A DNA stretch of 33,917 bases from Thermomicrobiaceae bacterium (GTDB lineage Bacteria; Chloroflexota; Chloroflexia; Thermomicrobiales; Thermomicrobiaceae), in NCBI GenBank assembly GCA_007133615.1, contig SLMJ01000262.1:1-33917 (forward strand), written 5' to 3'. Each line of letters opens with the position of its first letter. Position 1 is the first letter of the stretch. Below are positions 171 to 28,986 of the stretch, piece by piece. A program made the translations under genes and the position numbers. Under the pieces are notes generated by a model. That model did not search any database. It was given only the letters and a program-made list of their open reading frames with translations, and was not told where the DNA came from.

Positions 171-1025
171 TCAGGAGGCAAGTATGAGCAGCACCAGGTT
201 GGCAACCGAGTGGGCGGCGATGACAGCCAGCAGCGACCCCGTAACATACCTGACGTATCCGAAATACAACGATACGCCGAAGATGAACCAGACATTGAGA
301 ATCGAGCCATGGCCAGTGTGCATCACGGCGAACAGGACGCTCACCAGAACGATCCCACCGGTGGTCCCCAGTGCAGCCATCGCGGCAGTCTGCAGCACGC
401 CACGAAAGACGACTTCTTCAACGACGCCGGTACCCAGAATCAGGATGCTTCCAAACAGAACGAGTTGCCCTGTTGTAGATGCTTCCACAGTTATCACCTG
501 ACCGATAAGACTGAACTCGGCCATGCCGATCACGACGCCGGTTGAAATCACAATGATCGTCAGCAACCAGCCCGCGCCGGTCGGCAGTTGCAGGCCGATC
601 TGCCGTCGAGAGAACCCCAGCACCCGGACGGCGGTAATCGCCGCCGCCAGTGGAGGAAGCCCCGCCAGGACGTACCACCATTCGAGGCTGACTGCTCCAA
701 GCGGGAGTCCGAGAGACACAATCCGAATCAGCGGTACCAGTGAGATCGAGAGCCAGAGCGCCATGGCCTTCGGGCGCGGTTCGATCGCTCCGTGAAAGAT
801 AGATGCCGTGAACACCAGCAGATGAATTGACAGCCCGAGCAATGGGCTCGCATACGTTGTCAGTACCTCAGCACAACCGATTGCAATAGCGTACAGGATT
901 GCGAGTTGAACGACTGAAATCGATCTCAACGCCTCCATAGTGCCGACTCTCGTCCCGACGTAGGTAACACGTTGGGCCGGCAGTGATTCCTTCTCAATTG
1001 GTTCTTGTACGGACAACGGGCGCAT
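171..1025 (-). CDS. CPBP family intramembrane metalloprotease (CAAX protease/Abi type)
   Basis: A polytopic membrane protein of 284 aa with about seven hydrophobic segments. The C-terminal half carries the CPBP (CAAX prenyl protease 2/Abi) signature: EEVVFRG around residues 203-209, HTGH at 236-239, and HSVAN at 272-276. These provide the glutamates, arginine, histidines and asparagine that form the glutamate-based active site inside the membrane in this family. In bacteria such enzymes act as intramembrane proteases in bacteriocin immunity or protein maturation; the substrate here is unknown. The longest start (1025) gives a hydrophilic 30-residue leader. An internal ATG at 936-938 (MEALRS) would begin just before the first TM and is a real alternative; neither start has a convincing ribosome binding site. 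It is divergent from the small membrane protein at 1284 and shows no link to the glycan genes. Confidence 0.85.
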   Translation of the reverse strand: MRPLSVQEPIEKESLPAQRVTYVGTRVGTMEALRSISVVQLAILYAIAIGCAEVLTTYASPLLGLSIHLLVFTASIFHGAIEPRPKAMALWLSISLVPLIRIVSLGLPLGAVSLEWWYVLAGLPPLAAAITAVRVLGFSRRQIGLQLPTGAGWLLTIIVISTGVVIGMAEFSLIGQVITVEASTTGQLVLFGSILILGTGVVEEVVFRGVLQTAAMAALGTTGGIVLVSVLFAVMHTGHGSILNVWFIFGVSLYFGYVRYVTGSLLAVIAAHSVANLVLLILAS

Positions 1026-2891: not shown

Positions 2892-3737
2892 ATGGAACGG
2901 CAGGATACAACATCAATGGTGTCGGTCGTAATTCCCGCCTTCAACGAGTCTGACCGTATCCGGGGATCGATCATCGAAGTTTGCGGTGTCCTGGAGGCGA
3001 TCTGCGCCACACCAGACTGGGAAGTCATCGTGGCCGATGACGGGAGTACTGACGCCACAGCGACGATTGTCCGCGAGCTAATGACGCTCGAACCCAGGCT
3101 GTCGCTGCTTTCGTTACCGCACCGGGGAAAAGGGGCAACTGTTCGCTCGGGAATCCTGGCGGCGAATGGCGAGAAGATTCTGTTTTCAGATGCCGATCTC
3201 GCGACCCCAATGCGGGAGGCCGCTCGTCTCTTTGCCGAACTCGAAGCAGGCGCCGACGTCGCAATCGGCTCTCGTGCGGCTCCAGGAGCGCAACGCCTGG
3301 GCGAACCGTTCTACCGGGAAGCGATGGGAGCAGTCTTCCGTTCTCTTGTCCATCTTCTGCTCCTCAGTGATTTTTGCGACACGCAATGCGGGTTCAAAGC
3401 CTTCTCCCGACGTGCCGCGCATGACGTGTTTTCCCGACTCACTCTGCACACCGACGATTCGCCCGTGATCACACACGCTGCCGTAACGGCGTTCGACCTC
3501 GAGGTTCTGTACCTTGCCGTCCACCTGGGGTATCGGGTGAGAGAAGTACCGGTGGAATGGCATTACGGGGCGGGATCGAAAGTCAATCCGCTTCGCGACA
3601 GCCTCGCATTGCTTCGAGATGTCCTGGAGATCCGTTCACGAGTACGCCGCGGGGTGTACGACCTCGTCCCTGATCTGCCAATCACAGATCCAGCTTCTCC
3701 GCTACCGCTAAAGGATGATCCGCATGTCGCTGGATAG
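2892..3737 (+). CDS. Family 2 glycosyltransferase, polyprenyl/dolichyl-phosphate sugar synthase type
   Basis: A 281-aa cytoplasmic GT2 enzyme. The GT-A fold is clear: SVVIPAFNES near the N-terminus, ADDGSTDAT for nucleotide binding, HRGKGATVRSG, and the metal-binding DADLATP. The later conserved block TQCGFKAFSR and the VPVEWHYGAGSKV stretch are typical of dolichyl-phosphate beta-glucosyltransferase (Alg5-like) proteins. Such enzymes move a hexose from a nucleotide sugar to a polyprenyl phosphate on the inner face of the membrane. Unlike GtrB it has no C-terminal TM helices. The start is well fixed by GGAGGAGCAA directly before the ATG. The next gene, a GT39-type membrane transferase, overlaps its 3' end, and the pair makes biochemical sense: one makes the lipid-linked sugar, the other uses it outside. 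The sugar itself cannot be read from the sequence. Confidence 0.9.
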   Translation: MERQDTTSMVSVVIPAFNESDRIRGSIIEVCGVLEAICATPDWEVIVADDGSTDATATIVRELMTLEPRLSLLSLPHRGKGATVRSGILAANGEKILFSDADLATPMREAARLFAELEAGADVAIGSRAAPGAQRLGEPFYREAMGAVFRSLVHLLLLSDFCDTQCGFKAFSRRAAHDVFSRLTLHTDDSPVITHAAVTAFDLEVLYLAVHLGYRVREVPVEWHYGAGSKVNPLRDSLALLRDVLEIRSRVRRGVYDLVPDLPITDPASPLPLKDDPHVAG

Positions 3738-5058
3738 TAGTGCCGATCGAACGACCAGCTCCAGCGCCGGCAGGCTGACAATCAACGGAGTCACTGGCCG
3801 ACTCGCTGCTTCGCTACGATCACTCGCCCAGAGAATGACAACCCTTCACGTTTTCATTGCCCTGTTCGTTGTCGCCTTCCTGTTCCGGGCGGTCTACTCG
3901 CTGATTGCTGCGACGGTGGACCCGATAATGGGCGGTGACCCGCTGATGGGTGACGCCGCGTCGTACGATCGCATTGCGCGAAGCCTGATGGCTGGAGGCG
4001 GATACGGAGAAGTCCCGGGCGAGCCGTCAGCGTTCTGGCCGCCGCTGTATCCGGCGTTTCTTGCTGGACTGTATTCGATCGCCGGATATGAACTCCTTAC
4101 GGCGCGCCTGGTGAATTCAGCATTTGGAGCCCTGGTTCCGATCCTCGTTTACCTGATCGCGATCCGGCTGTTCGATCGCCGGGTGGCGCTTGTTGCCGCC
4201 GTCGGTTCGGTATTCTATCCACTGTTCATCGTCCTGGGCTCATGGGTGATCCCGGACGGCCCCTACATCGTTTTCGTGTGCCTGATCGTGCTGCTCATGC
4301 TGGAGATTCAGGAGCGGCCGCGTGCGTCGATGTATGTCGCACTTGGTGTGACGCTTGGACTGGCATATCTGCTGAAACCTGTGACCGCCTTCTTTCTGCC
4401 GTTCATGATCCCGTGGTTTCTACTGTCTCTGAGAAGTGTTCCAGTTCGGCACCGTTGGATAGCCGGAATCACGACGGCCCTCGTGCTGGCCGCGGTTCTA
4501 ACACCCTGGACGGTCCGGAATCTGGTGGTGCTTGGTGATCCAATTGTTGGCTCGGCGAATGGTGGATATACGTTCTATGGGGCAAACAACCCGGACGCGT
4601 TCGGCGGGCATTACGAGCACTTTCCCGAGCGAATCCCGGAGATGTCTGAGGGCGAAGAACAGATGCATTTCTATCGGCTTGGAGTGGAGTGGATCCGGAA
4701 TGACCCGGCAGCGTTTCTGTCCGTTCAGGTCCAGAAGTTTCAACGTCTTGCCTCTCCGCTGTCCATTTCCAGCAGTCCGCAGGATCTGACGGTTCCCGGG
4801 GAGCGGATCGTCCGATTCTCCTACACGATCTTCCTTCTGCTCGCGTTTTCCGGCCTGGTGATCGCATCCCGACACCTGCGCCGCAACGGTCTACTCCTCA
4901 TTCCGTTGCTGGCTGTCCTTGCGAGTACTGCCGTCTTCTACGGGGACGCGCGCTATACCATGCCGGCAGTCCCGGTATTGCTGATCTGGGCGGCCGTTGC
5001 GCTTGTCCTGGTATGGGATCGATTAAGGCGCTCCAGAGAGTCTCATCTCGGTTCCTGA
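3724..5058 (+). CDS. GT39/ArnT-like membrane glycosyltransferase (GT-C fold)
   Basis: A 444-aa polytopic membrane protein with a cytoplasmic N-terminal tail of about 40 residues and roughly ten to eleven hydrophobic helices. The first periplasmic loop has the family hallmark GDAASYDRIARSL and then FWPPLYPAFLAGLYSIAG, which matches the PMT/ArnT-type (Glyco_transf_39 or PMT_2) pattern with an acidic catalytic residue just after TM1. A late GDARYTMPAVPVLL block is also typical. These enzymes transfer a sugar from polyprenyl phosphate to a lipid, glycan or protein on the outer face of the membrane. The ORF track begins at 3715, but AAGG at 3711-3714 is spaced correctly for the ATG at 3724. The gene overlaps the upstream GT2 by 14 bases, so translation is probably coupled, and a terminator follows. 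The acceptor is unknown. Confidence 0.88.
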   Translation: MSLDSSADRTTSSSAGRLTINGVTGRLAASLRSLAQRMTTLHVFIALFVVAFLFRAVYSLIAATVDPIMGGDPLMGDAASYDRIARSLMAGGGYGEVPGEPSAFWPPLYPAFLAGLYSIAGYELLTARLVNSAFGALVPILVYLIAIRLFDRRVALVAAVGSVFYPLFIVLGSWVIPDGPYIVFVCLIVLLMLEIQERPRASMYVALGVTLGLAYLLKPVTAFFLPFMIPWFLLSLRSVPVRHRWIAGITTALVLAAVLTPWTVRNLVVLGDPIVGSANGGYTFYGANNPDAFGGHYEHFPERIPEMSEGEEQMHFYRLGVEWIRNDPAAFLSVQVQKFQRLASPLSISSSPQDLTVPGERIVRFSYTIFLLLAFSGLVIASRHLRRNGLLLIPLLAVLASTAVFYGDARYTMPAVPVLLIWAAVALVLVWDRLRRSRESHLGS

Positions 5059-5120: not shown

Positions 5121-5461
5121 GCGGTGAGTCAGGCTCTTCGGGCGACGAGCAGCCTGGCATTCAGGCTGGGCGCCAGAATGACTCTGAAACAACGCGAGGC
5201 GCGGAAGGCTTCAATCGCGTGTACTGGCTAGTGATCGCTGGTGCAGTTGACATCATTCGCAGAAGATGCACAATACGATAGTATTCGGTTCACTCGTCCA
5301 GGTTGCAGACCGGTGCAACCGACACAGTCGTACCGCGGATCCTGAATCCTGACCTGGAGCTTCACGGCACACCATCACGCTCTCCCGGGTTTCGGTACAG
5401 GACCATTCCGGTAATCGAGTCCGGAACCTGTCCAGGTTCTGGCATCGGGAAGGTCTCGCTG
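5121..5461. other. Intergenic region before the histidine kinase
   Basis: The ORF-track extension of the kinase into this region relies on a TTG start at 5303 and adds residues with no domain content. A small perfect hairpin lies at 5150-5168 (CAGCCTG, 5-base loop, CAGGCTG), and a candidate promoter at 5247-5274. I see no gene. Confidence 0.6.
5247..5274 (+). promoter_or_regulatory. Candidate promoter of the histidine kinase
   Basis: A perfect TTGACA -35 hexamer at 5247-5252 is followed after 16 bases by CACAAT (four of six matches to the -10 consensus). The transcript would carry a leader of about 180 bases before the ATG at 5462. The -10 is weak, so confidence is moderate. Confidence 0.4.
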
Positions 5462-6241
5462 ATGCCGCGACCAAGGAAGACACGGGAGCACGCCTCGACC
5501 CCGTTACGACGCGATCGCTCAGCTCAGGACACCGATCTCGAGCAGCTCGCGCAATTCATTTCACATGAGCTTCGGAACCCCATTAGTACCCTTCAAGCAT
5601 TTCTTACGATTCTTCTCCGCGAACAGACCGGGCCGCTGAATGACGTACAGCGCGATTTCGTCTCTTCAATGCTATCCATCAGCCACCGACTCGAGCGGCT
5701 CAGTGACGACATCCGGGTGGCGTTTGCTGATGGTTCCGAGGTTTCCGTGCAACCGTCGATGGTGGATGTCCGGGCGGTGGTCGAGTCCTGCCAGCGCGAA
5801 GTGTCATCGATCGTGCATTCTGACGGTCTGAGCATCGAGCTAGACATCGATAACATGCGTGACTGGACGATGACCCAGGATCCCGTTCGTCTGGCGCAGA
5901 TCGCGTCCAACCTGTTAGAGAATGCGGTCCGACATTCGCCGGATGAGGGCACAGTCAGGCTTGCGCTCCGTCAGAGTACGTCCAGATTGTTTCTGGTTGT
6001 GGAAAACGAGTCGTATCAGGATCTGTCAGAGAGTGATCTCGAGGCGTTGTTTGCCCCCTATGCTCGGGGCTCGTCTGCTTCCACTCGCCATCCGGGGGGA
6101 TCAGGGCTTGGTCTCGCGGTGGTCACACATCTCGTCGCCGCACTTAGAGGACGGATTGTGATACGCGCGGGCAAAGGTCGTGTGTCGATTGGAATTGTTC
6201 TTCCCCGAAGCATACCCGGTGAATCTGGCGCGGGGGAGTGA
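5462..6241 (+). CDS. Soluble sensor histidine kinase without a visible sensor domain
   Basis: A 259-aa protein made only of a HisKA dimerisation domain and a HATPase_c domain. The H-box FISHELRNP places the phosphorylated histidine at H35. The N-box is NLLENAVRH (N154) and the G2 box is GGSGLGL at 212-218. The usual G1 box (DxGxG) is missing; the equivalent position reads VVENESYQDLSE. There is no TM helix and no PAS or GAF domain, so the input signal must arrive through a partner protein. The ATG at 5462 has GGGAAGG eight bases upstream; the longer TTG-started version in the ORF track is unlikely. The kinase and the response regulator at 1645 flank the GT2-GT39 operon and could form a pair, but this is inference from proximity. 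Confidence 0.87.
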   Translation: MPRPRKTREHASTPLRRDRSAQDTDLEQLAQFISHELRNPISTLQAFLTILLREQTGPLNDVQRDFVSSMLSISHRLERLSDDIRVAFADGSEVSVQPSMVDVRAVVESCQREVSSIVHSDGLSIELDIDNMRDWTMTQDPVRLAQIASNLLENAVRHSPDEGTVRLALRQSTSRLFLVVENESYQDLSESDLEALFAPYARGSSASTRHPGGSGLGLAVVTHLVAALRGRIVIRAGKGRVSIGIVLPRSIPGESGAGE

Positions 6242-6584
6242 TTCCCAGATTGCGAGCAGCGCCCGATCACTGCCTACCTGAACTACGCGAGATCCGGGTA
6301 GCGAAAGTGAGCGGGCAATCTCGCGGATAGTCTCTGGTCGACCGTCAAGCACCACAACCTGACCAGAGTCCGTCCAATGCTCCGCGAATGTAAGATGGTT
6401 TATACGACCCCGCTTCGCGGTCACGATATGCAACTTTCCAGGTGTTCCCGACAGTTTCCGGATTCTCGCCAGATCTAGTGGTTGTGTCGGGACCTAACTG
6501 CTGAAAGTATGTGTCAAGGTTATGAATCGGAGTCACGAACCGATCAATATGAACCTGACGAGTTTCCCAGTAACTGAAGGCTGG
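6239..6584 (-). pseudogene. Probable decayed coding sequence downstream of the DUF1616 gene
   Basis: Directly after the DUF1616 stop codon, the same frame continues with protein-like sequence (FSYWETRQVHIDRFVTP, then HNLDTYFQQL). The open frame then shifts near 6495. From there another frame reads PLDLARIRKLSG, LHIVTAKRGRINHLTF and VVVLDGRPETIREIARSL, up to about 6240, where it overlaps the end of the kinase gene on the other strand. No ATG with a ribosome binding site opens either part; the ORF-track starts here are GTG and TTG. The pieces read like a truncated, frame-shifted C-terminus, perhaps of a GT-C-type membrane protein or of a once longer DUF1616 protein. No function can be assigned. 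It could instead be chance open sequence. Confidence 0.4.
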
Positions 6585-7532
6585 CTAACCGTCTTGTTCC
6601 AGGGAGTCAACGTTGATTGTCAGATGTCGATGCACTTCGTCACGTCCCTGACTGTAGAGTTCGATTCTGAACGTGCCGTATGTGAGACCTTCCGGCATCT
6701 TCCAGCTAATAGCTTCTGCGTGGGTTGCGCCGGATTCGACCAATAGCGAACTTGATTCTGCGATCGGGCGGCGTTGGGCGGAATCTGCATCCGTCTCGAC
6801 GACAAGGACGAAGTACGTCTGAACGTCGTCAGAGCCGTTGTGGATTCCGAGATTCACCGCAACGTCGCCGCGTGGTTCCACTGCGTACGGATAGTCTCTC
6901 GCTTCTCCTTCACTCCCGAGAATAAAGAACTCGGTATCGAGTTGTTCTGATCGACTGATACTCGACATGACAACGGCGACGAGGAGAAATGCCACCAGCA
7001 AGCTCACAGTGATGGGCACGATCCTGTTGCTCAGCGATCCACCGGATCTGAAATTAACCCCGAATGCTGCCGGAGTCATCTTGTCGGCCGCTTGCTCGAC
7101 ACTCCGATACAGACCGATCGCGATCCAGAAAATGGTCCAGACGGCGAGGGCCGGTAACGTCGATTCTGGCGATATTGCAATACCGGAGAACTCCAGCAAC
7201 AGTGCGACCATCGGGATGATCGCGATGCTGATCCCGAATCCAATGCCGATACCGTACATCCCGGTTGCTTCTATTCGGCCGACGAAGAGCGCCCTCGCGG
7301 TCGCGTAACCAGGAAGCAGAAGCACGAGGGCGATCCCGAGCGGAATGCGGATGTATGCAAAGGGCACGTGCGGCAGCAGAGGCAGAATGATCGCCGAACC
7401 AACGATGATGGTCCAGATCGGCTCATGGAGAAACACGAGGCGCAGTCGTGTGAGCACCGATGGGCCGATCGGCTCAACGAGCGGGCTCTCGAAGCTCTGT
7501 TCGCTGGATCTCGTATGCGGGTCAGTCTGCAT
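6585..7532 (-). CDS. DUF1616 domain membrane protein
   Basis: A 315-aa membrane protein. After a polar N-terminus of about 35 residues there are four hydrophobic helices carrying the DUF1616 pattern: a first pair, then LGIALVLLLPGYATARALF, where the PGY turn after a long helix is the hallmark. A fifth helix (VPITVSLLVAFLLVAVVM) leads to a C-terminal extracellular domain of about 115 residues (EFFILGSEGEARDYPY... to the end). This reads as a beta-sandwich like that of DUF1616 and CARDB-type domains. The biochemical role of DUF1616 is not established; members occur beside glycosyltransferases in archaea and Chloroflexota. The start is supported by AGGA before the ATG, and the gene overlaps the preceding GT4 by 11 bases. 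It is the last intact gene of the large minus-strand operon. Confidence 0.85.
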   Translation of the reverse strand: MQTDPHTRSSEQSFESPLVEPIGPSVLTRLRLVFLHEPIWTIIVGSAIILPLLPHVPFAYIRIPLGIALVLLLPGYATARALFVGRIEATGMYGIGIGFGISIAIIPMVALLLEFSGIAISPESTLPALAVWTIFWIAIGLYRSVEQAADKMTPAAFGVNFRSGGSLSNRIVPITVSLLVAFLLVAVVMSSISRSEQLDTEFFILGSEGEARDYPYAVEPRGDVAVNLGIHNGSDDVQTYFVLVVETDADSAQRRPIAESSSLLVESGATHAEAISWKMPEGLTYGTFRIELYSQGRDEVHRHLTINVDSLEQDG

Positions 7533-8709
7533 TGACCGATTTCCTGTCCTGGTGCTGGATTACCGTCGACTCGCATCGTGCCCTGGTCGCCGCAACTCGT
7601 TCGTAGTGCGCCATCGTCTGCTGCGCAGTGGCATCCCAGTTGAATGCTGATGCCCTGTTGATACCCGCATTCGTGAGAGCCTCATGAAGCGCTGGATCGC
7701 CCAGAACATGGCCTATCGCCGCGGACATTTCGCTGACGTCGTAGGGATCTACCAGAATTGCGGCGTTCCCGGCGACTTCGGGCATGGACGAGATGTTCGA
7801 GGTGATCACTGGGGTTCCGCAGGCCATTGCCTCCAGCACGGGAAGTCCGAATCCCTCATACAGTGACGGGAACAGAAACGCGGTCGCACCCCGATAGATG
7901 CCCGGGAGATCCTCGTCGGGAACGTAACCCGTGAACTTGACAACTCGCTGAAGTACCGGATCCTCCATCACGTGGTCGATAGCTTCCGCTTTCCACTGGC
8001 GCTTTCCGGCGATAACAAGCGCGTACTCCGGATGATCACGATATGCCAGCCGGAACGCCTGGAGCATGCGCGCAATGTTCTTTCGACCGTTGAGCGCTCC
8101 GACGTAGAGCACATACGGAGAGCTGATGCCGTAACGCTGGCGAAGCGTCTGATCATCAGTTCCCAGTCCTCTGCCGGTGAACTGTCGCCCCACGCCTTCG
8201 GGAATCACGGCGACGTCAATATCATCGAGGTTCAGATCGCGGGTGAGATCCTCCTTTGAGGTGTTGCTCACCGTGATCACCGAATCCGTCCGCCTCAGCG
8301 CTATCGGCAGGAACCATCGATAGCGCCAGTTGTCCAGTCGGTTGTGCGATTCTGGCTGAACAAACGGGAATGCATCATGGAGTGTGACCACGCGGCCTGT
8401 TCGCCTCGGAAGAGCCAGGAAAGGCGCAATTCCATTGGGATCATGGATCATGTCCAGCTTCAGATCGTGGGCGGCTCGCCCGATCAGAAGGTTTCCCGCG
8501 GACATCAGCGCAGGCAGCGTGCGACAACCGGGAAGGTTTCTGACAGCACAATGGTTCGCCAGATCTGGATCAAGGGTCTGTTCGGTCGAGAGTATGGTGA
8601 TTTCGTGCCCATGCGTATCCGCGAGGATTGCGAGCAGCAATTCTTTCGCGTATCTGCCGATACCCGTGGGTGCGCGGTCGAGTCCATATGTCAGATAGCC
8701 AATGCGCAT
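7522..8709 (-). CDS. Family 4 glycosyltransferase
   Basis: A 395-aa GT-B enzyme of family GT4. The N-terminal acceptor domain opens with [24 protein letters not shown], whose glycine-rich TGIGRY loop is typical of mannosyltransferase-like members. The C-terminal donor domain has [21 protein letters not shown] and the EX7E motif region [19 protein letters not shown], followed by the [16 protein letters not shown] block that closes the nucleotide site. The donor sugar cannot be read; this subfamily often uses GDP- or UDP-linked sugars. TAGGA about nine bases before the ATG supports the start. It lies 10 bases after the GT-C-like gene and overlaps the DUF1616 gene by 11 bases. It resembles the tandem GT4 pair at 16748 and 17887. 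Confidence 0.92.
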
Positions 8710-8719
8710 GGTTGTGGTC

Positions 8720-10315
8720 CTACCGTTGATAAGGCGTTACCGGACGGATTCGGTACACCTCGGCAGTGCCGTTGTCATAAATCCTGTTGGAATCCGTTGT
8801 GACTGGAAGCTCACGTGTCAACCGTAAACTGCGCATCCGGGATACGTCCGACGTAACGATCGTCTGTGTCGTAGGTGTGCGTGGTCCACCGAAATAGGTG
8901 TTCCCAACCTGTGATTCGGAACGAACAGTGTGATACGCCACGACCAGACGCTGGTCGAACTCGGTCCAGACTTCGGAGTTATCCAGATGCCGTTCCGTCC
9001 AGTCAATCGCTGCAATCTCAGCTGGACGATAGTAGATCCAGGTGTTGCTCACCAGCGGTTCGTTGGTTGCTTTGAACACGGAAAGAGCCGTCACACACAA
9101 TAGCAGCAGTGCAAACCCGAGCCGCAGTGCTCCCGAGTAGCGCTTTGGTTCCCACCTGATGTACGCGTTTACCAGGATTGCGACCGCGAACACGGCGATC
9201 GATGGGAATAGCCGCTGCTGAGCGTTGCTGCTCAACGCCCCGCTGAGATCGACGAGAACCGAGAGAAATCCCTGACCGGCAAACGCCGCATACATCAGCC
9301 AGATAATCAATGATGTCTGAGCCGGGGATTCGGATCGAGTCCAGAACCACCGGATTCCCTGATAGCTCCAGACGATGAACGATGCGCCGAGAACGATCCA
9401 GTTGGCCAGACTGAGGATGAAGTACACGTAGACACTGGTCCACCCCGTAGACACGACTGCGTAGGCGTTCGTCGGCGTCGAGATCTCGGTATTGAGGAGC
9501 AAGGCAGCCATTTGCCCCCAGATAGTCTCGTAGACACTCAGCTGATGCATCGCGGGTGGATAAACGTAGAAAATGAAGAGGTAGACACCGGCGAACGAAG
9601 TAACGAGCACGTATGGAAGCCGGGACAGCGTCGCCGGCACTGCATCCAGCCCGGAACTGCGACGTCGATTGAGTATCCAGCCGACAACAAGGGCGATCCC
9701 GATTGCAAACACGAAGCTGTGCGCGATGAATGAGTTACTGGCGATCAGCGCAAATATTGTGACGTAGAACAGGCTGACGTAAATGGCGAAGACCCGTGGT
9801 TGATTCGACACGTTGATGCTGCGTAATAGCAGAAACAGGCTGAAGAGCATCAGTGCACGGGTGAATTTCTCGTGCGAACTCCGCATCACAACGAAGAGGA
9901 ATTCTGGCTGCGTGAAGAGTAGCAGTGCTCCAATGACTGCTCCGGTGACCCGGCCGCTCAGTTCGCGATACAGGAGCAGCGCCGGCAGGACGACAAGGCA
10001 GGCCAGCAATGGATACACCAGCCGCTGAAGGGTCGCGACCTCGATCCCGGTCGCATGAATCAGAAACGTTGAGATCGCCTGGTAGGAAAAACCATTGGCA
10101 TAAACGTGAACAGAATCCGGGATAAGTCGACCTTGCGATTCGAACTCGACAATGGCCTGAGTGAGTGCGCTGGAATCAGATTCGGCCCAGGCACCGGAGT
10201 AACGCGCCAGGAAGTACACGCCAACCAGGAACATGTAGATGACCGGACCGAGCCAGATGAGGCTGGTAATCGCATTTGAAACTCGTGGAGTAGAGACGTC
10301 ACTCGGAACGCGCAC
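8720..10315 (-). CDS. Polytopic membrane protein, probable GT-C-type glycosyltransferase
   Basis: A protein of about 531 aa with a short cytoplasmic N-terminus, some eleven to thirteen hydrophobic helices and a C-terminal soluble domain of about 100 residues (VWTEFDQRL ... YRIRPVTPYQR). After TM1 comes an acidic external loop (AESDSSALTQAI), then YANGFSYQAISTFLIHATG. This arrangement resembles GT-C enzymes, but I do not see a family-diagnostic motif, so the assignment is tentative. The ORF track starts at 10405, but the first 30 residues of that frame are a shadow of the upstream gene. The GTG at 10315 has AAAGGA eight bases before it, and this start overlaps the upstream stop by 17 bases, matching the coupled style of the cluster. 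A Wzy-like polymerase or ligase is another possibility. Confidence 0.75.
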   Translation of the reverse strand: MRVPSDVSTPRVSNAITSLIWLGPVIYMFLVGVYFLARYSGAWAESDSSALTQAIVEFESQGRLIPDSVHVYANGFSYQAISTFLIHATGIEVATLQRLVYPLLACLVVLPALLLYRELSGRVTGAVIGALLLFTQPEFLFVVMRSSHEKFTRALMLFSLFLLLRSINVSNQPRVFAIYVSLFYVTIFALIASNSFIAHSFVFAIGIALVVGWILNRRRSSGLDAVPATLSRLPYVLVTSFAGVYLFIFYVYPPAMHQLSVYETIWGQMAALLLNTEISTPTNAYAVVSTGWTSVYVYFILSLANWIVLGASFIVWSYQGIRWFWTRSESPAQTSLIIWLMYAAFAGQGFLSVLVDLSGALSSNAQQRLFPSIAVFAVAILVNAYIRWEPKRYSGALRLGFALLLLCVTALSVFKATNEPLVSNTWIYYRPAEIAAIDWTERHLDNSEVWTEFDQRLVVAYHTVRSESQVGNTYFGGPRTPTTQTIVTSDVSRMRSLRLTRELPVTTDSNRIYDNGTAEVYRIRPVTPYQR

Positions 10316-12767
10316 CGTGCTCGTCCTTTCCACGAAGCGACCACAGCAGCCACCAGGAGATACCGGCCATGACAGAGAACGCCAGCAGTGCCAGTGTTCC
10401 GACAAGCAGGAGTGTCCCGCTGGTTCCCAGAAGCAGCATCTGACTCCGGTTTGCTTCCGGGGCCGGCTCTACTTCTATGACCGATGACGCCAGCGCGAAT
10501 TCCTCTCCATCGCTGTCTTCAAGTAGCGGTGTTACGGTCCAGGTCGCGCCATACGGGGCAGTCCAGTCAACTGGAATGGTTCTCACGCCCGTCCCCTGAA
10601 CGTCGATGGAAAACGGACCGATCTCCTGTTCGTAGCCATCGGAGTTCGTGACAAGCAGTGACAGGCTCGCGTCCTCGAGATCCTGCAGTCCGCGATTTCG
10701 CAGTGTCAGTGCGATAGTTCCGGGATCAAGTGCTTGGCGCGGTGAATCCGTAAGCGACGCAGAAAGTTCGGCCGGAGTAAGTTCGACGATCGAGAACTCC
10801 CCGTCGTAGTTGACGAGGTAACTGCCCGGCGCGAGTTCGCCGATATCCAGAAACTCGTTTCCGGTAGACCGTGAACGGGTGCGAATCTCGAGTACGAACC
10901 GGAAGCCATCGTCGGTTTTGCGAAGACCGTGTGCTCGTGCTTTGTCGATTACCTGTGACTCACCGGGTTGCGCTTGCAGCCACTGGCGCAGTCGGAGAGG
11001 ATCTCGCGTCCGTTGCTCGATTTGCCGGTCAATGCCGACGAAATCCTCCCAGGATTCAACGCCCTCAGGAATCGGAACCGCGTCGTATTCAGGAGGTTCA
11101 TCCAGCTCAAGGATTTCAATGGTGCCGGAATCCATATAGATCAGGTAGTTGTCGAGATGATCGAGCGAACGGCTTACACGACCCGGAGATGCGATGGAGA
11201 CTCGGTCGATCAGCGTGGACGTTCTTTCAGGCACCTTTTCGATCCACCAGGAGTCTATGAACTCCCCACCATCCCGGTTCTTCCAGCGCAGGACAGCACC
11301 ATCGCCCAGATTCCAGATACCTTCGGCCGCGTGCTTCAGGTGTATGCGATTGTCGAACGGCGAAACGTAGAGTTCCGGTTGTCCCGGGTATTCCAGGCTG
11401 AACTCCCCGCGGAATCCCTCGCGCAGCCGAAGCGGATGAATCTGCGGAAAATCGAGATACGGGGCGTGCAGATTGGCAAGCGGTTCATGCTCGAGAGTCT
11501 CGAGTGTCAGTTCATCGATTTCCTCCGGCACCTCCTGCGGCTCCGTTGGTGACGCCAGCCGGATTCCACTGAGCCATTCGGTCACCGGATAGTTGTCTTC
11601 CACGCTGAAGTCGTAGATTCCTTCACTTCCGGTCTCACCTTCGGTGGCTTCAACAAAGGTGACGCCTGGCCATTCGCGGGACAGGATCCACTCCGGGTAC
11701 TCGTCGTACTCAATGGCCACGACCTCGGTATCTCCCACGGTGACGGTCTGGTCGTGCTTATGCGGTCCGTTGACAGACAGCGAATAGCGCCAGCGATCCG
11801 GCCGATCGGTTGTCCAGCTCATTCGAACCGCCGTGCGCTGGGCGTAATACGGGAGCGGGCCGTGCCGATGACCTTCCGGCCAGATGTCGCTTCGAACAAC
11901 GAGATTGGCGTACCGACCGGCGTCTTCGTCGAACCGGTAGAAGGCAAACGGGGATTCGAAGTCGGTTGCCGGGGGCAGGGAGATCGAGTTGATCTGATAC
12001 ATCCCTCCGATGTGGAAACCGCTCCAGTTCTGCTCGAGCACCCGGGTTTCGTGCGAGAAGAAGACCGGCTGAATCGATCCCCAGTGACCTTCCTGGTCCA
12101 CCGCACTGAGGTACGGCCAGGTTGGCATCAATGGCTCGGCCATGTCGAACGGGACAGATTCGTCTACCCGTTGCGTCACTCCAAACAGGGGACTGGCGAC
12201 ACCACCATCTTCGAGGAGTGACTCACGTATGAACCAACCGGGCACCCCGGGTTCCTCTTCTCCAATGCGGATCTCCCATTCGAGTTCGCCCGTTGTGGGA
12301 TTGGCTTCGTAGCCTTCAAGGTCGAACACTGGTTTTCCGTCTTCGACCCAATCCTCGCGGTTTGATCGAATGATCAGGTCCGGGCCAAGATCCGGACTCA
12401 TGGTGTAACGGCCGGATTCAATGATGATTGATTCCCGCATGTCCATGGTCTTCGGAACATACAGGCGAGCGACCGGTTTCCCGTTCTCCATCGAGAAGTC
12501 CAGGACAAGGTCGATCAACTGGTCTTCCGACCAGGAAAGCAGATATGCATCAGTTTTCGCGTTACCCAGTCGCCACCACGGTCCATCTTCCGAAAGCTCG
12601 GCTGACGACTCGGTTTTCTGATCGCGGTTTATGACAGCGACGCTCAACTCATGTCCCTGCCACTCTCCGAACCAGTATCGAGTGTTTCCATAGTCCGGAT
12701 TGGACGCAGACACGTTGACGCTTACGAGCAGGGTGAGGCCAAAAAAGATGCCCAGCAAGATCCTCAT
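10299..12767 (-). CDS. Large exported protein with one C-terminal TM, unknown function
   Basis: A protein of about 822 aa. The start at the ATG 12767 gives a textbook signal peptide (MRILLGIFFGLTLLVSVNVSAS), has GGAG nine bases upstream and sits two bases after the asnB stop; the longer ORF-track version is a shadow. The mature part is acidic and rich in Trp, Tyr and Glu, suggesting beta-rich extracellular domains. About 110 residues before the C-terminal helix read like a CARDB/Ig-like domain (ALTLRNRGLQDLEDASLSLLV). One strong TM helix (LLLGTSGTLLLVGTLALLAFSVMAG) is followed by a short basic tail, so most of the protein is extracellular and anchored. I recognise no catalytic motif. Its place between asnB and a GT-C-like gene suggests a role in building, binding or modifying the glycan at the cell surface, which is inference only. 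Confidence 0.85.
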   Translation of the reverse strand: MRILLGIFFGLTLLVSVNVSASNPDYGNTRYWFGEWQGHELSVAVINRDQKTESSAELSEDGPWWRLGNAKTDAYLLSWSEDQLIDLVLDFSMENGKPVARLYVPKTMDMRESIIIESGRYTMSPDLGPDLIIRSNREDWVEDGKPVFDLEGYEANPTTGELEWEIRIGEEEPGVPGWFIRESLLEDGGVASPLFGVTQRVDESVPFDMAEPLMPTWPYLSAVDQEGHWGSIQPVFFSHETRVLEQNWSGFHIGGMYQINSISLPPATDFESPFAFYRFDEDAGRYANLVVRSDIWPEGHRHGPLPYYAQRTAVRMSWTTDRPDRWRYSLSVNGPHKHDQTVTVGDTEVVAIEYDEYPEWILSREWPGVTFVEATEGETGSEGIYDFSVEDNYPVTEWLSGIRLASPTEPQEVPEEIDELTLETLEHEPLANLHAPYLDFPQIHPLRLREGFRGEFSLEYPGQPELYVSPFDNRIHLKHAAEGIWNLGDGAVLRWKNRDGGEFIDSWWIEKVPERTSTLIDRVSIASPGRVSRSLDHLDNYLIYMDSGTIEILELDEPPEYDAVPIPEGVESWEDFVGIDRQIEQRTRDPLRLRQWLQAQPGESQVIDKARAHGLRKTDDGFRFVLEIRTRSRSTGNEFLDIGELAPGSYLVNYDGEFSIVELTPAELSASLTDSPRQALDPGTIALTLRNRGLQDLEDASLSLLVTNSDGYEQEIGPFSIDVQGTGVRTIPVDWTAPYGATWTVTPLLEDSDGEEFALASSVIEVEPAPEANRSQMLLLGTSGTLLLVGTLALLAFSVMAGISWWLLWSLRGKDEHGARSE

Positions 12768-12769
12768 CG

Positions 12770-14644
12770 TCAACGCTCCAGGCCCGCCGCCTGCTGCCAG
12801 CCTTCGAGAATCGCGAGGCTCCAGTCCTGGTAGGCGGCTTGAGCAGGCGAGGTCGGTTTCGTTCGGTGGCCGTTGCCCCGATGCCGATACAGTTCCGGTG
12901 CATGGCGCTTCACCCAACTGTCCAGATGACCGTTCATCCAGCTGACCATTGGCGCCTGAAACGTCTGTTTCTTCCGGTTGCGAACAGCGGCAGGCAGTTC
13001 GTTTGCGAACGCCTGGCAGAGCATGCCTTTCAGTCCGCCATTCATGAGGTCCTGGCGTTTTAGCTGAGCCACGAATGCGATGAGTTCGAGATCCTGAAAG
13101 GGAACCCGTGCCTCGATCGAAGCACTCATGGTCATTCGGTCTAGTCGGGTGTTGTAGTGTTCTGGAACCATCAGGAGCAGGTCCATCCGGGCAAACTGTT
13201 CGGTGTTGCTTTCACCAATTCCGCGCGGGAGAAGGGCTGCACGTGCAAGCGTGTCGTCGAAGATCTGCTGCAGTATTATTTCGAGATCTGATGGATTGAT
13301 TCCTGCATGTTCGGCCGCCTGTTCTGCGGTAAAGTGCACCCCCGAGACAATCTGGTAGCGCTCAAGTGGTGGCCGACGCCAGACACTGGAAGCGCCAAGC
13401 AGATTCGTTCGCGTACCTGGCGACAGGAACGATGAGTCAGCCAGCAGCCGGGCGAACGGTCCAAACCAGGGAATCCGGTTGTAGCGGTCACCCCGCATCA
13501 CCGCGTTGTATGTCGGGTAGCCGAGAAAAACCTCATCACCGCCGTGGCCAGTGAGAACGACTTTGACCCCGTGCTCTCGGGAATGCTCGCTGAGGATCTG
13601 TTCCGCCAGGGCATAGATCTCGGCGACCGGTTCGTCCACCATGTCCATGTTGGTGTCCAGCCGTCTCAGGAGATCTTCCGGCCCGAACGTGACTTCCGAG
13701 TGGTCCAGTCCGAGTGTTTCGGCAAGTTCCCGGGCGAGTTGAGCATCCATTGTTGCGTCAGGGTTCTGATCGGTGGCGCCCGGTTTCAAACTGAACGACG
13801 ACATCCCCGGATTACCTCGTGCGGCGATCGAGGCGATAATCGTTGAATCGATTCCACCGCTCAGGAAGATGCCGACCGGAACGTCGGACAGAAGTTGTCG
13901 GTCGACCGCTCGCTCGACTTCGTGCCGGAGCTGGTGAACGCGATCCGCCCCGCGCGCTTCAAGCTGAGGGGGTGTGGACCAGAACGCGGGAACAATGGTT
14001 TCGCTTCGGAATCGACCGGAAGCATCGAACACAACACGCTCTGCCGGTCGGAGCCTGTTGATTCCCTCGACCAGCGTGTAGGGAGCAGGAACAAATCCGA
14101 AGTAGAGATACACTCCAACCGCATTGCGGTTAGTTCGCCGACTTGTGTAGGGCAACAGTGCTTTGATCTCGGACCCGAAGTAGACCGCCTCGCTGGTTGC
14201 ACAGTAGTACACCGGCTTGATGCCGAGCGGATCGCGTACAAGGGAGAGTTCCTGTGCCTGGCGATCCCAGATGGCCATGGCGTACATGCCGTTGAGTTGC
14301 TCCAGGGTGGCCTGGATGCCCCATTGTTCCAGCGCTTGCAAAACGGTCTCGGTATCGGATTCAGACCGATAGTCTTGTACTCCGTAGCTTGTGAGCTGAG
14401 CACGGAGCTCGTGATGGTTATAGATCTCCCCGTTGTAGGCCAGAACGTAGCGATCGCTCGACATTGGCTGATCTCCCGCGGCGGAGAGATCCTGGATGCT
14501 GAGCCGCCGTGTACCAACACCGAACGGTCCCTCGCAGTGGGTCCCAGCCTGATCGGGACCCCGATGGGCGATGACCGAACTCCAGGCGTCGAGATCTGGC
14601 CGCTCGATATGCTCCGGCATGAGATATCCGACGAAACCACACAT
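12770..14644 (-). CDS. asnB: Asparagine synthase (glutamine-hydrolysing) family amidotransferase
   Basis: A 624-aa two-domain enzyme. The N-terminal class II glutaminase domain begins MCGFVGYL, with the nucleophile Cys2 exposed after Met removal, and has NGEIYN at 71-76 and RDPLGIKP at 137-144. The C-terminal synthetase domain carries the ATP-pyrophosphatase P-loop SGGIDS at 262-267 and LTGHGGDEVFLGY. The family makes asparagine from aspartate, but homologues in polysaccharide clusters (WbpS-like) are thought to amidate uronic acids or other glycan groups. Location between a GT4 gene and a putative surface protein favours such a role, though ordinary asparagine synthesis cannot be excluded. 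Two ATGs are adjacent. The second (14644) forms TGATG with the upstream stop, puts Cys at position 2 and is correctly spaced from AAGGA, so it is preferred over the track's 14647. Confidence 0.93.
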   Translation of the reverse strand: MCGFVGYLMPEHIERPDLDAWSSVIAHRGPDQAGTHCEGPFGVGTRRLSIQDLSAAGDQPMSSDRYVLAYNGEIYNHHELRAQLTSYGVQDYRSESDTETVLQALEQWGIQATLEQLNGMYAMAIWDRQAQELSLVRDPLGIKPVYYCATSEAVYFGSEIKALLPYTSRRTNRNAVGVYLYFGFVPAPYTLVEGINRLRPAERVVFDASGRFRSETIVPAFWSTPPQLEARGADRVHQLRHEVERAVDRQLLSDVPVGIFLSGGIDSTIIASIAARGNPGMSSFSLKPGATDQNPDATMDAQLARELAETLGLDHSEVTFGPEDLLRRLDTNMDMVDEPVAEIYALAEQILSEHSREHGVKVVLTGHGGDEVFLGYPTYNAVMRGDRYNRIPWFGPFARLLADSSFLSPGTRTNLLGASSVWRRPPLERYQIVSGVHFTAEQAAEHAGINPSDLEIILQQIFDDTLARAALLPRGIGESNTEQFARMDLLLMVPEHYNTRLDRMTMSASIEARVPFQDLELIAFVAQLKRQDLMNGGLKGMLCQAFANELPAAVRNRKKQTFQAPMVSWMNGHLDSWVKRHAPELYRHRGNGHRTKPTSPAQAAYQDWSLAILEGWQQAAGLER

Positions 14645-14654
14645 CATCGGATCC
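14642..14654 (-). repeat. 13-base repeat at the GT4-asnB junction (copy 1)
   Basis: GGATCCGATGATG on the minus strand contains the end of the upstream stop region and the two adjacent start codons. The same 13 bases occur at 20244-20256, where they form the same kind of stop-start junction. Confidence 0.45.
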
Positions 14655-15873
14655 TTCGCAGTGAGTGTTCGGAATTGACACCGGCCGACGGTAAATCCGT
14701 ATCGTGCGCTCCGCCGAACCTCAAACCGACTTCTGAGTAAATGTCGTCCAGGCGCCGGGCGACGGATTCCCAGCTGAACTCGCGAGCGCGTTCCCGAGCG
14801 TTCGCCCCAATGCGGAGGCGCCAGTCCGTATTACTGATCAAGGTCAGCAGGGCGCTTCTCAGCGCTTCGGGGTTACTGGAAGGGACGAGCAATCCGGTCT
14901 CACCCTGCTCGACGATTTGAGAGAGTCCGCCCCGAGCAGACGCGATTACCGGGGTACCCGCAGCCATCGCCTCACACGCAACCATTCCGAATGGCTCATC
15001 CCAGGTGGAAGGAACAACGCAGACGTCTGCGGCGGCGTAGACGCCAGCCATCGCCGATGCAGGTACGGGTCCGAGCCAGCGCATTCGGAGACCGGACGCA
15101 AGTTGACGGATCTGGTTCTCATACGCCGTCGACTGCCGGTTGTTCGTGTTTTCAGGAGTCAGCCAGAGCGATGCAGACCCGGCGACGACGATTTCGATGT
15201 TTTCGAGCTGCTCGATCCCGGAAACTGCCTCGAGCAGCACGTGCAATCCCTTTTCGGGCACCAGTGCTCCGGCAAACAACACCACTGGTACGTCGTCCGG
15301 TATTCCCCACTCACGTCTGAGTTCAGCGCCATTCGTGTGTTCGAAGCGCGCCAGGTCCAGTCCGTTGTGCACCTCGAAAACGCGCTCAGCAGGGAATCTG
15401 ACTCTCTCAAGGAACTCCTCGCGAATCAGCCGACCGCAACAGACGACCGCATCAGCACGGTTTACGAGATGTGTGTATGCCCAGCCCGGAAACTCGGGAA
15501 CCGGGGTCTGGTAGTGCAGCAGCTTCAGATGACGGGAAGGCCCGAGCAGGAGGTGAGGATCAGTGTAGGCGTGGAGTACATCCGGAGACTCAGCGCGAAG
15601 GCTCTGCGCGAGAAGTGGAGCGGTAATGCGGAAATCATACGGTCCAAGCCTCGCCCGGCTCCACCCACTGGTTGTCGTGACCGCAACACTGCCGATGGTC
15701 CATCGCCCGGGTGCGTTCGGGTTCCAGCCAAGAATTTCCGCTACGTACCCATTTTCGGACTGCGCGCTGGCGGTGCCGATCGCTACACCAACCAGACCGC
15801 TGCAGGCTTCAGCGGAGACATCTCGAGGCACTGCCCCCAGTCCTGGCGTTATGTGGCGTACCCGAAGACTCAC
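14644..15873 (-). CDS. Family 4 glycosyltransferase
   Basis: A GT4 enzyme of about 409 aa. The N-terminal domain starts LRVRHITPGLGAVPRDVS. The donor domain has VVLFAGALVPEKGLHVLLEAV, the acidic motif WDEPFGMVACEAMAAGTPV and GGLSQIVEQGETGLLVP, all typical of GT4. The ORF track begins at a GTG at 15891, but a second GTG at 15873 is preceded at seven bases by GAGAGGA, which makes it the better start. The reading frame ends in TGA overlapping the asnB start. It is more distant from the other GT4 proteins in the window than they are from each other. It heads the second half of the minus-strand cluster after a 200-base gap that may hold its own promoter, although I could not identify convincing hexamers there. 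Confidence 0.91.
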   Translation of the reverse strand: MSLRVRHITPGLGAVPRDVSAEACSGLVGVAIGTASAQSENGYVAEILGWNPNAPGRWTIGSVAVTTTSGWSRARLGPYDFRITAPLLAQSLRAESPDVLHAYTDPHLLLGPSRHLKLLHYQTPVPEFPGWAYTHLVNRADAVVCCGRLIREEFLERVRFPAERVFEVHNGLDLARFEHTNGAELRREWGIPDDVPVVLFAGALVPEKGLHVLLEAVSGIEQLENIEIVVAGSASLWLTPENTNNRQSTAYENQIRQLASGLRMRWLGPVPASAMAGVYAAADVCVVPSTWDEPFGMVACEAMAAGTPVIASARGGLSQIVEQGETGLLVPSSNPEALRSALLTLISNTDWRLRIGANARERAREFSWESVARRLDDIYSEVGLRFGGAHDTDLPSAGVNSEHSLRRIR

Positions 15874-16073
15874 CGTCCGGTCCTCTCGCACCAGTTTCCG
15901 TTTCAGGCGTCAATTGACACTAGGAGCAAGTCTCCAGCATCCGGGTTTCAGAGGAGATCAAAGTAGTTGCAGTGACTGGTGACGGTATTGTCATCAGGGT
16001 AGCGGCGGGACGCGTTCGCGTGGCGAATCCGCCAGGCTGAACCCGACAGTTCCGCTGACATCGAGGCTCTTGA

Positions 16074-16751
16074 TCAAGCTGACGACTGATTCTGTTGCTC
16101 CCGCGGGCTCTGATCGGGCTTCGCATGTGTTCGTGAGGAATCTGTCATGATGACCGAAACGTTCGACTTCGCGATAAATGCTCCGGCCATAGGCATAAGC
16201 GCGAAGATGGTAAGCGTCATGACATACGGGGCGTAGGCGAGCTCGACAGACGAAGCAGAAAACGGCCACCAGAGCGGAATTCCACCGGTTGCGGCATCGC
16301 GAAACAGGTGGAAAGCGTTTCCGAAACAGATTCCAACGAAGAGCGCTTGATAGCGTCCGCGGGCTAACAGGATCGGCAGAATGAACACTAAAGCTACTAG
16401 CAGCGAATGGCTCGATGGTCGCGAGGTGATCTGTGTGAACTCGATGTCGCTCAACAGGATCGGGATGTGGCCGACATCCAGAATCAGGGAGCCGACAACT
16501 GCCCCGGCGAGGAAGTAATACGAGACCACCCTGAGGAAAGCCGCAAGCAGAATGAACGTCGTCGCCAGGTGTGCGACGTAGTCCATCGCGGCGATCACCG
16601 GAATGGATCGTGTCTCTGCACCGAGATACTGATCGATCAAGGCGATTGCAATGATCCCTGCAATTCCGATCGCCGAGACCAGCAGGCAGTAGCCCAGTCG
16701 GAATGGTTCAGGCCCGTTGTCTCGAGTCACGGCTTCTGTCTGCTCGGTCAT
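16074..16751 (-). CDS. YdjM/DUF457 family membrane protein (metal-dependent hydrolase-like)
   Basis: A 225-aa membrane protein with five to six hydrophobic helices and charged residues within them, as in the LexA-binding inner-membrane hydrolase family (YdjM, DUF457). The diagnostic pieces are MDYVAHLATT, LDVGHIPILL, SRPSSHSLL and GNAFHLFRDAATGGIPLWWPFS. The conserved His and Asp residues in these segments are thought to bind metal. The biochemical activity of the family is poorly defined. The C-terminal tail is polar (QSPREQQNQSSA). Its start overlaps the stop of the upstream GT4 by four bases (ATGA), so it is translated with the glycan genes. That could mean it acts on a lipid-linked intermediate or a membrane glycolipid, which is inference. 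Confidence 0.8.
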   Translation of the reverse strand: MTEQTEAVTRDNGPEPFRLGYCLLVSAIGIAGIIAIALIDQYLGAETRSIPVIAAMDYVAHLATTFILLAAFLRVVSYYFLAGAVVGSLILDVGHIPILLSDIEFTQITSRPSSHSLLVALVFILPILLARGRYQALFVGICFGNAFHLFRDAATGGIPLWWPFSASSVELAYAPYVMTLTIFALMPMAGAFIAKSNVSVIMTDSSRTHAKPDQSPREQQNQSSA

Positions 16752-19143: not shown

Positions 19144-20246
19144 GCCTTCCGTCTCCTCTCACTCAGCAGATCGAACAGCGGAAGCGCGGTTACGAAGAAG
19201 TCAATCATCGCCAGCGCTGGTGCCATCACAACGTAACGCGACGGAAATGGCTGCGTTGCCTCGCGTGACGCTGATGCGGCCTGGCGCACTCGCACTGTTG
19301 AGGCATAGATAATCAAAACTGCCCAGATCAGAAGAAAGATCCGGTGAAGCAGCAGTCCAACGACCGGCAATCCCGTCATCACCAGTCCAAGCCCGATCGT
19401 CTTCCATGTCGCAATGACATCATTACGAGCATCGAACTTCGGTCCGAAAAGGATGAGGTTGCGGAGCCATCTCGACTGCTTGCGGCGGTATTCATCGAAC
19501 GTTGTCGGATAGGACGATGCTATGCTGCTGTGTGGCAGATATCTGATCCTGATCCCGGCGGATTGCAGACGTTTGGCGAGGTGATAGTCCGTTCCGGTAG
19601 GCGCTTCAAAATCCAGCCCACCGATTGCATCGATCGCTGAACGTGCAACGGCGGCGTGTCGCCCTAAGATCCCATCGATGTATTCGCCGTTTCGTGCTGC
19701 AGCAGCGAGATCGCGAGCCCAGATGTGGTGTGCCAGGATCGAATTCACCTGCGACTCGAGAGGGTGGGACGTTCCCGTGACCGCGCGTTCCCGGCCAGAG
19801 ATGATCGGCTCCACCAGTTGCCGAAGCGCGTCTTCATCGAACCGGCAGTCTGCATCTGTGAAGTAGATAATGTCGCCGGTGGCGTGCGGCAGGCACCGGG
19901 CGAGCGCCCGCTGTTTCCCTTCTCCGGGGATTTGTTCGATTACGCGAACTCTCGGATGGGAATATCGGCGTGCCCGTTCGTAGGTATCGTCCGAACCGCC
20001 AGCACAGATGATCAGTTCGCAGTTCGGATAGCTCATTCTGAAGAACGATCTGATATGAGCGTCAATGTTGGCCGCCTCGTTCCACGCAGCGACAATCGCG
20101 CTTACGGCGGGCCGTGCAGGATCGTCGCCAGCGAACGTGCCGGGACGTGTGTCCGGTTTTTTCGCACTCGGGACGATTGCCGCGGCAACTCCGAATGCGG
20201 CGGCTACATCCAGAAAGCTGAAGTGTGCTGAGAGTCCTCGTCTCAT
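19137..20246 (-). CDS. Family 2 glycosyltransferase, membrane-bound processive type
   Basis: A 369-aa GT2 protein. A moderately hydrophobic N-terminal stretch (residues 8-26) precedes the GT-A domain: SAIVAAWNEAANIDAHI, IICAGGSDDTYE, the metal-binding DADC at 131-134, GTDYHLAKRL at 218-226 and the acceptor motif KQSRW at 256-260. The last is close to the Q(Q/R)xRW motif of processive enzymes such as cellulose and hyaluronan synthases. Two or three TM helices follow (about 275-305 and 335-360). This suggests a chain-extending or lipid-linked acceptor role at the membrane. Of two adjacent ATGs, the second (20246) forms TGATG with the upstream stop and has better spacing to GGA, as in asnB, so it is used in place of the track's 20249. 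Confidence 0.88.
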   Translation of the reverse strand: MRRGLSAHFSFLDVAAAFGVAAAIVPSAKKPDTRPGTFAGDDPARPAVSAIVAAWNEAANIDAHIRSFFRMSYPNCELIICAGGSDDTYERARRYSHPRVRVIEQIPGEGKQRALARCLPHATGDIIYFTDADCRFDEDALRQLVEPIISGRERAVTGTSHPLESQVNSILAHHIWARDLAAAARNGEYIDGILGRHAAVARSAIDAIGGLDFEAPTGTDYHLAKRLQSAGIRIRYLPHSSIASSYPTTFDEYRRKQSRWLRNLILFGPKFDARNDVIATWKTIGLGLVMTGLPVVGLLLHRIFLLIWAVLIIYASTVRVRQAASASREATQPFPSRYVVMAPALAMIDFFVTALPLFDLLSERRRKAW

Positions 20247-20256
20247 CATCGGATCC
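20244..20256 (-). repeat. 13-base repeat at the (alpha/alpha)6-GT2 junction (copy 2)
   Basis: Identical to 14642-14654. Both copies encode the final Ile-Arg-stop of the upstream protein and the ATGATG start of the next. Confidence 0.45.
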
Positions 20257-28231: not shown

Positions 28232-28466
28232 CGTGACCAATCCTCTCCGGTACCTGGTTGCGAAGCGCCCTGGTTGATCGGGAGGGCCGAAACGAGTCCG
28301 GTAGTGACCCGGGCGTCGTTCCCTCAGCAATTGCCGCAGTCCGAACCGCGGCCGCCAGGCATTGCCGCTCAACGTAGGAAAATTGTCGCGGCTACACCGT
28401 GACTTCTGTACTCTGGTGAAACCGGTACCTCGTGAGAATCCTGTCACCTCGAGCGTTCAGGGTCCT

Positions 28467-28504: not shown

Positions 28505-28986
28505 TGCTTTCCTTAAACAAAGAAAATCGAACCATTCCTGGATTAGCTGATAGATCAAGGAACTCTGGGATCCTTGACAGTGCCCCGTTCCAATGTCCAG
28601 CTCGATCCAGCTTCCTCGACCACTAGCGCGCGTTGGCGGCTGGCGCACCTGGTGGGTCCTGTCTGCCGGGACAACGGTCCCGGGTCGTTTCACAAAATTG
28701 ACCTGTACTTCCCCCTGTCAGGAATGTCATCGATAACTATCGTCCGGTGCGTTCAGATGAAACCGAAGACCCCGTAGCCTGCAGATACCGACTGGAGATT
28801 CAGCCGGTACCGCGGCTGTAATAGGTGCGGTTGGCGTGTTGGTTCGAGTGAAAGGTGTGATGGCTGCATGCCGGAGACCGGACCCCCAGGGCGGGGCATG
28901 TACGGGAACAATCTGGATTCCGGTTCGCCAACCTTTCGGTTGCGCGACACCTGTCGAATGTGTCTGTCTATAAGGGAGAGGGTCAG

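Follow-up and report, generated by a model that had tools for sequence, protein, structure and literature searches.

A 33,917-nucleotide stretch of a Thermomicrobiaceae bacterium (Chloroflexota; contig SLMJ01000262.1; hereafter, the window) carries a real, uncharacterised gene module that represents a variant surface-glycan assembly system with unusual cross-domain reach. Its conserved core in Chloroflexota comprises four adjoining genes:

EXPORT, 10299..12767, minus strand: exported protein of 822 residues, ATG start at 12767
GTC, 8720..10315, minus strand: GT-C-like protein of 531 residues, GTG start at 10315
GT4_A, 7522..8709, minus strand: cytoplasmic GT4 glycosyltransferase of 395 residues
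DUF1616, 6585..7532, minus strand: membrane protein of 315 residues with an external beta domain

We consider it about an even chance (roughly 0.5) that these four genes, often together with a CPBP-type membrane protease, form a mobile module for an extracytoplasmic stage of surface-glycan assembly, with EXPORT holding that step at the flippase. An earlier note, made from the sequence alone, had proposed an uncharacterised surface-glycan module of five genes, the fifth being an AsnB-type gene upstream of EXPORT. The minus strand does carry all five genes, and the junctions from AsnB through EXPORT, GTC and GT4_A to DUF1616 are exactly those it described, i.e., a 2-base gap, a 17-base overlap, a 10-base gap and an 11-base overlap. 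The coupled run extends further upstream, where a second GT4 gene (GT4_B) overlaps AsnB by 4 bases, so the number five is an arbitrary cut. Ordinary surface-glycan genes adjoin the module in the window. A scan of positions 6200-16200 with the sigma-70 consensus, which is uninformative for Chloroflexota, returned no promoter-like sites, and literature searches found no paper on the module.

Pfam clearly recognises DUF1616 (PF07760, 85 bits versus a gathering cut-off of 31.6), GT4 and AsnB. The earlier note's statement that two of the five lack an assigned role is borne out for EXPORT and GTC, neither of which has a sequence match in Pfam, NCBIfam or PDB; their profiles likewise gave nothing useful against PDB sequences.

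EXPORT and GTC occur together

Co-occurrence was assessed in a class sample of 158 genomes and a phylum sample of 400 genomes, and gene neighbourhoods were compared at 34 GTC loci. In the class sample, 15 genomes contain EXPORT and 17 match GTC; 16 of these 17 are true relatives, the G101 match being marginal. All 15 EXPORT genomes also carry GTC. The phylum sample contains full-length GTC in 15 genomes and full-length EXPORT in 14, all 14 of them shared, an overlap with a hypergeometric chance of about 6e-25 (relatedness uncorrected). EXPORT lies within 3 kb of GTC in 27 of the 34 loci, or 27 of the 31 with enough upstream sequence (L062, L070 and L085 have less than 1 kb upstream of GTC). 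DUF1616 lies within 8 kb of GTC in 27/34 loci, with the contig ending first in several others, and CPBP within 10 kb in 16/34. GT4_A homologues, 42-55% identical across Chloroflexota loci, mostly stand between GTC and DUF1616, and the gene order is repeated in many families of Chloroflexota and in at least one haloarchaeon, often with overlapping starts. These counts bear out the expectation that the exported and GT-C-like proteins stay together; the opposite pattern, homologues mostly without each other, was looked for and not seen. Among individual genomes, G344 carries GTC alone, G342 has both genes on one contig about 15 kb apart, and G158 and G170 have them on separate contigs of fragmentary assemblies. 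GTC and full-length EXPORT are both missing from every other listed member of the genus and family to which the window belongs; the distribution of the module is therefore patchy, as expected of a mobile surface-glycan island.

The proposed five-gene unit thus holds for EXPORT, GTC, GT4 and DUF1616 but not for AsnB. AsnB-type genes are near GTC in only three loci (the window, L048 and L066), with one more near EXPORT in the fragment L057, so AsnB is accessory and outside the core, and amidation as a function of the module finds no support.

An archaeal plasmid carries the module

On a plasmid of the halophilic archaeon DL31 (CP002989.1), EXPORT (Halar_0596) overlaps GTC (0597), followed by a GT4 (0598), a GT2 (0599, 45% identical to the window GT2 at 26071-27186), another GT4 (0600, 33% identical to the product of window positions 22224-23504), DUF1616 (0601), CPBP (0602) and dTDP-rhamnose genes (0603-0607). 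The profiles score 510 bits on EXPORT, 295 on GTC, 164 on DUF1616 and 106 on CPBP. Given this copy, the EXPORT-GTC-GT-DUF1616-CPBP set crosses domains. A GTDB-wide scan with the GTC profile recovered 23 loci, all from Chloroflexota, and the same scan with a single EXPORT sequence gave no matches; a phylum-restricted GTC family, considered on the basis of those 23 loci, is disproved by the archaeal plasmid copy. A GTC search of plasmid and phage records returned none besides the DL31 plasmid.

GTC has a predicted GT-C fold outside the oligosaccharyltransferase family

Topology analysis shows GTC to be polytopic, as the earlier note had read it, and structure prediction with fold search confirms its GT-C assignment. 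The predicted structure (predicted local distance difference test score, pLDDT, 82.6; predicted template-modelling score, pTM, 0.83) adopts a GT-C fold, and 19 of 19 PDB fold matches with E <= 0.001 are GT-C enzymes. The closest solved folds are PglB and STT3 (E 2e-7 to 4e-6, template-modelling (TM) score about 0.5), followed by DPY19, ArnT, AftD and AftA. The protein carries a W-A-E-x-D47 motif in loop 1, an R145-S-S-H-E149 motif in loop 2 and a soluble C-terminal domain. D47, R145, H148 and E149 are invariant across 22 Chloroflexota proteins and the archaeal one, as are D356, N364, Q366, R368, K415, W426 and R456, whereas E45 is nearly invariant in Chloroflexota but different in DL31. D47 supplies the acidic residue of the first external loop that marks GT-C enzymes, and H148-E149 stand at a helix start where STT3 has its second acidic motif, in a weak hhalign register.

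In comparison with PglB/AglB/STT3 (GT66), GTC shares the fold, the loop-1 acid, a polar second-loop motif and the soluble C-terminal domain, yet it differs in its smaller soluble domain, its regular genetic partner EXPORT and its lack of a match to PF02516, the NCBIfam STT3 models or PDB sequences. The STT3 WWDxG motif is absent; the segment judged equivalent reads W-x-x-F/Y-D-E-R. GTC was considered as an STT3 family member and rejected on the missing WWD and the weak hhalign alignment. ArnT/PMT enzymes (GT83, GT39) also share the GT-C fold, and polyprenyl-phosphate-sugar synthase-like GT2 genes occur in the window; however, GTC has no PMT or PMT_2 Pfam match and carries other motifs. By its predicted fold, GTC is a GT-C enzyme that falls outside the oligosaccharyltransferase family by sequence.

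EXPORT is a predicted beta-rich ectodomain on one helix

A single hydrophobic segment near the N-terminus (3-21) and a single helix near the C-terminus (785-803) flank the EXPORT ectodomain, in agreement with the anchoring proposed before. Its predicted structure (pLDDT 76.9) is multi-domain and mainly beta, and fold search gives specific matches for the C-terminal Ig domain plus helix only (TRAP-alpha, local). In the model, the ectodomain is rich in beta structure and closes with a CARDB-like Ig domain, followed by a single transmembrane helix. No enzyme was matched by sequence or fold, and no glycosidase or lyase fold was found at whole-domain level; the match to an unrelated enzyme family that the earlier note had named as a refutation was not seen.

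Flippases accompany the module in relatives

The earlier note had suggested that the gene set replaces a missing flippase, polymerase and ligase. The data do not support this: the source genome has Wzx flippases and Wzy_C proteins on contigs outside the window, and relatives carry a flippase or Wzy_C beside the module or fused to EXPORT. In L051, EXPORT is fused behind a Wzx-type flippase in a single protein of 1325 residues (flippase profile 18-431, EXPORT 519-1321; PF01943, Polysacc_synt, 30.4 bits versus a cut-off of 28.2). L079 encodes a second such fusion of 1252 residues, which scores 24.8 bits with PF01943, just under the cut-off, and is positive with our own flippase profile. In L048 and L060 the gene immediately upstream of EXPORT encodes a flippase, and in L066 and L077 one other gene stands between them; about ten relative loci contain a flippase in the locus or fused. 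Wzy_C proteins are close to the module in L079, L081 and L083, and L076 is a partial case. Based on the fusions, these neighbours and the copies in its own genome, the module most likely works with a flippase instead of replacing one.

As in Wzx-dependent pathways, nucleotide-sugar and glycosyltransferase genes surround the module; what sets it apart is the GT-C enzyme, the large anchored ectodomain, DUF1616 and CPBP, which the classical pathway lacks. Separately, in L082 (174-2705) and L133, a single long open frame seems to be matched by both a GT4_B-type domain and the flippase profile, a hint of a GT4-flippase fusion immediately before EXPORT. The long N-terminal stretches that precede EXPORT in L069 and L061 were discounted as probable out-of-frame readings (low-complexity, with no flippase match in that frame).

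Accessory and partner genes

Around the core, the window contains the following genes:

AsnB, 12770..14647, minus strand: AsnB-type glutamine amidotransferase/synthetase of 625 residues, unconserved with the core
GT4_B, 14644..15891, minus strand: glycosyltransferase with a homologue immediately before EXPORT in several relatives
CPBP, 171..1025, minus strand: CAAX/Rce1-like intramembrane protease, a frequent DUF1616 neighbour in relatives
GT2, 2892..3737, plus strand: polyprenyl-phosphate-sugar synthase type (DPMS/ArnC-like)
GT39, 3715..5058, plus strand: PMT_2-type GT-C protein, paired with the GT2

Besides the five genes first described, CPBP and the GT2/GT39 pair (2892-5058) are related to the module, as is the archaeal copy. 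The window CPBP lies 5.5 kb beyond DUF1616; its genome has no other homologue of the L071 CPBP, which there follows DUF1616. In many relatives the two genes form a close pair; in the window they are split by response regulator and histidine kinase genes (1645-2490, 5303-6241). Four archaeal plasmid DUF1616 loci outside the module show other contexts, though Methanohalobium keeps DUF1616-CPBP, and the pair may be an older unit. On that plasmid, pMETEV01 (L139:8905-10652), DUF1616 stands directly before a CAAX-type protease, with no GTC or EXPORT annotated nearby. Among the papers found, one names DUF1616, and solely as an N-glycosylated Haloferax protein (PMC8241124). CPBP sortase-like proteases are comparable in that CPBP often follows DUF1616 and the window protein scores on their models; however, its scores fall under the curated cut-offs (myxosortase MrtC/P/X and MrtJ; MrtJ 42.6 versus 75 bits), and no conserved pre-helix motif was seen at the EXPORT C-terminus.

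The GT2 at 2892 resembles dolichol-phosphate-mannose synthase and ArnC, and in L060 homologues of this GT2 (49% identical) and of the GT39 protein (44%) stand between EXPORT and GTC. AsnB comprises GATase_7 and Asn_synthase domains (asn_synth_AEB, 380.8 bits versus a cut-off of 267.1); judging from its sequence, it probably starts at the second Met (MMCGF), which would place the catalytic Cys next to the start. The XrtA/PEP-CTERM exopolysaccharide (EPS) amidotransferase (TIGR03108) is likewise an AsnB-type enzyme in an EPS cluster, but the window AsnB reaches 312 bits versus a cut-off of 817.

Other features of the window

Two Pfam-less proteins of 466 and 191 residues (20246-22218) recur, jointly or singly, in other copies of the locus, the former with homologues 36-53% identical in L051, L060, L071, L075 and L079; on this recurrence, both are conserved unknowns of these glycan clusters. 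A GT2 with C-terminal helices (27239-28447) resembles archaeal AglJ and polyprenyl-phosphate sugar synthases, with 135.7 bits to TIGR04182, under its cut-off of 325. A YdjM (DUF457-type) membrane protein is encoded inside the glycan cluster (16074-16751), and the DL31 plasmid has a DUF457 protein (Halar_0613) about 13 kb from GTC. An exported 446-residue protein with no Pfam or NCBIfam match (28960-30300) lies beside dTDP-sugar genes.

A working model and its alternatives

We propose that GT4_A, judged by its family, would work on the cytoplasmic side, extending a lipid-linked oligosaccharide by a sugar, and that a Wzx-type flippase, as its genes and fusions beside the module suggest, would turn the lipid-linked glycan outwards. 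GTC, whose fold is predicted with confidence, would then make the transfer outside the membrane from a polyprenyl-linked donor; the polyprenyl-phosphate-sugar synthase-like GT2 enzymes in the window fit a polyprenyl-phosphate donor. EXPORT may be the membrane-anchored ectodomain partner of GTC, holding glycan or acceptor at flippase and GTC, as its near one-to-one co-occurrence, adjacency and flippase fusion suggest. DUF1616 and CPBP may be membrane accessory proteins, perhaps for assembly or processing, and AsnB a locus-specific tailoring enzyme. Several observations weigh against this model. EXPORT has no informative fold match (whole-chain TM score at most 0.13 among the matches listed), three divergent GTC loci (L086, L126 and L129) lack the rest of the core nearby, and the window shows no flippase beside the module. 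Furthermore, tree distances of EXPORT agree poorly with those of GTC (Spearman 0.24, a value equalled or exceeded in 107 of 2000 permutations), in contrast to the good correlation between GTC and GT4_A (0.59), so EXPORT may be swapped between loci more freely than GTC and GT4_A.

The main rival, possible if on the unlikely side, is that GTC acts as an oligosaccharyltransferase-like ligase, moving the whole flipped glycan en bloc from the lipid carrier to an acceptor, possibly EXPORT or an S-layer protein. Besides the PglB/STT3 folds and the neighbouring flippases, it draws on an hhalign alignment that sets the loop-1 acid and R-S-S-H-E-K of GTC opposite the STT3 loop-1 and loop-2 motifs. However, the probability of that alignment is just 2.4%, WWDxG is missing, ArnT and other sugar-by-sugar GT-C enzymes are about equal by TM score, and N-glycosylation sequons are unenriched in EXPORT (53 seen versus 57 expected). 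It is rather improbable that EXPORT is instead a polysaccharide-processing enzyme or a calcium-dependent glycan-binding or sheath-anchoring protein, with GTC and DUF1616 merely making its glycan. DxDxDG calcium-loop-like repeats occur in many EXPORT relatives, CARDB is detected in three and FG-GAP weakly in three, and Foldseek gives low-quality hits to sialidase and integrin beta domains. Yet the calcium-loop pattern is largely lost in the window copy, EXPORT has few invariant acidic residues, whole-domain glycosidase and lyase folds are lacking, and the flippase fusion suggests a membrane-proximal assembly role.

A five-gene machine, AsnB included, that takes over from flippase, polymerase and ligase by exporting, ligating or amidating a glycan is very improbable: the tight window junctions and the AsnB-type proteins near the module in L048, L066 and L057 speak for it, but AsnB is absent from most loci and the flippase and Wzy_C genes described above contradict it, so that the neighbourhood comparison largely refutes it as stated. 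To chance neighbours in a generic exopolysaccharide locus, with no shared function, we give almost no credence; unrelated glycosyltransferases abound in the locus and loci of this kind do reshuffle their genes, but the co-occurrence and neighbourhood counts and the recurring order refute it.

Implications

To our knowledge, the completion of surface glycans in Chloroflexota and many archaea is poorly known. Linkage, fusion and a cross-domain copy now connect two families with neither name nor model to the outer stage of glycan assembly at the cell surface, and the module becomes a defined, testable gene set that offers a concrete partner, the flippase, for the large ectodomain. More speculatively, and with odds we regard as low, EXPORT, GTC, DUF1616 and CPBP would form an undescribed membrane machine common to Chloroflexota and haloarchaea, in which a new GT-C family supplies an extracytoplasmic glycan ligase or polymerase coupled directly to the flippase. 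A further hint from the module is that Chloroflexota and haloarchaea have exchanged genes.

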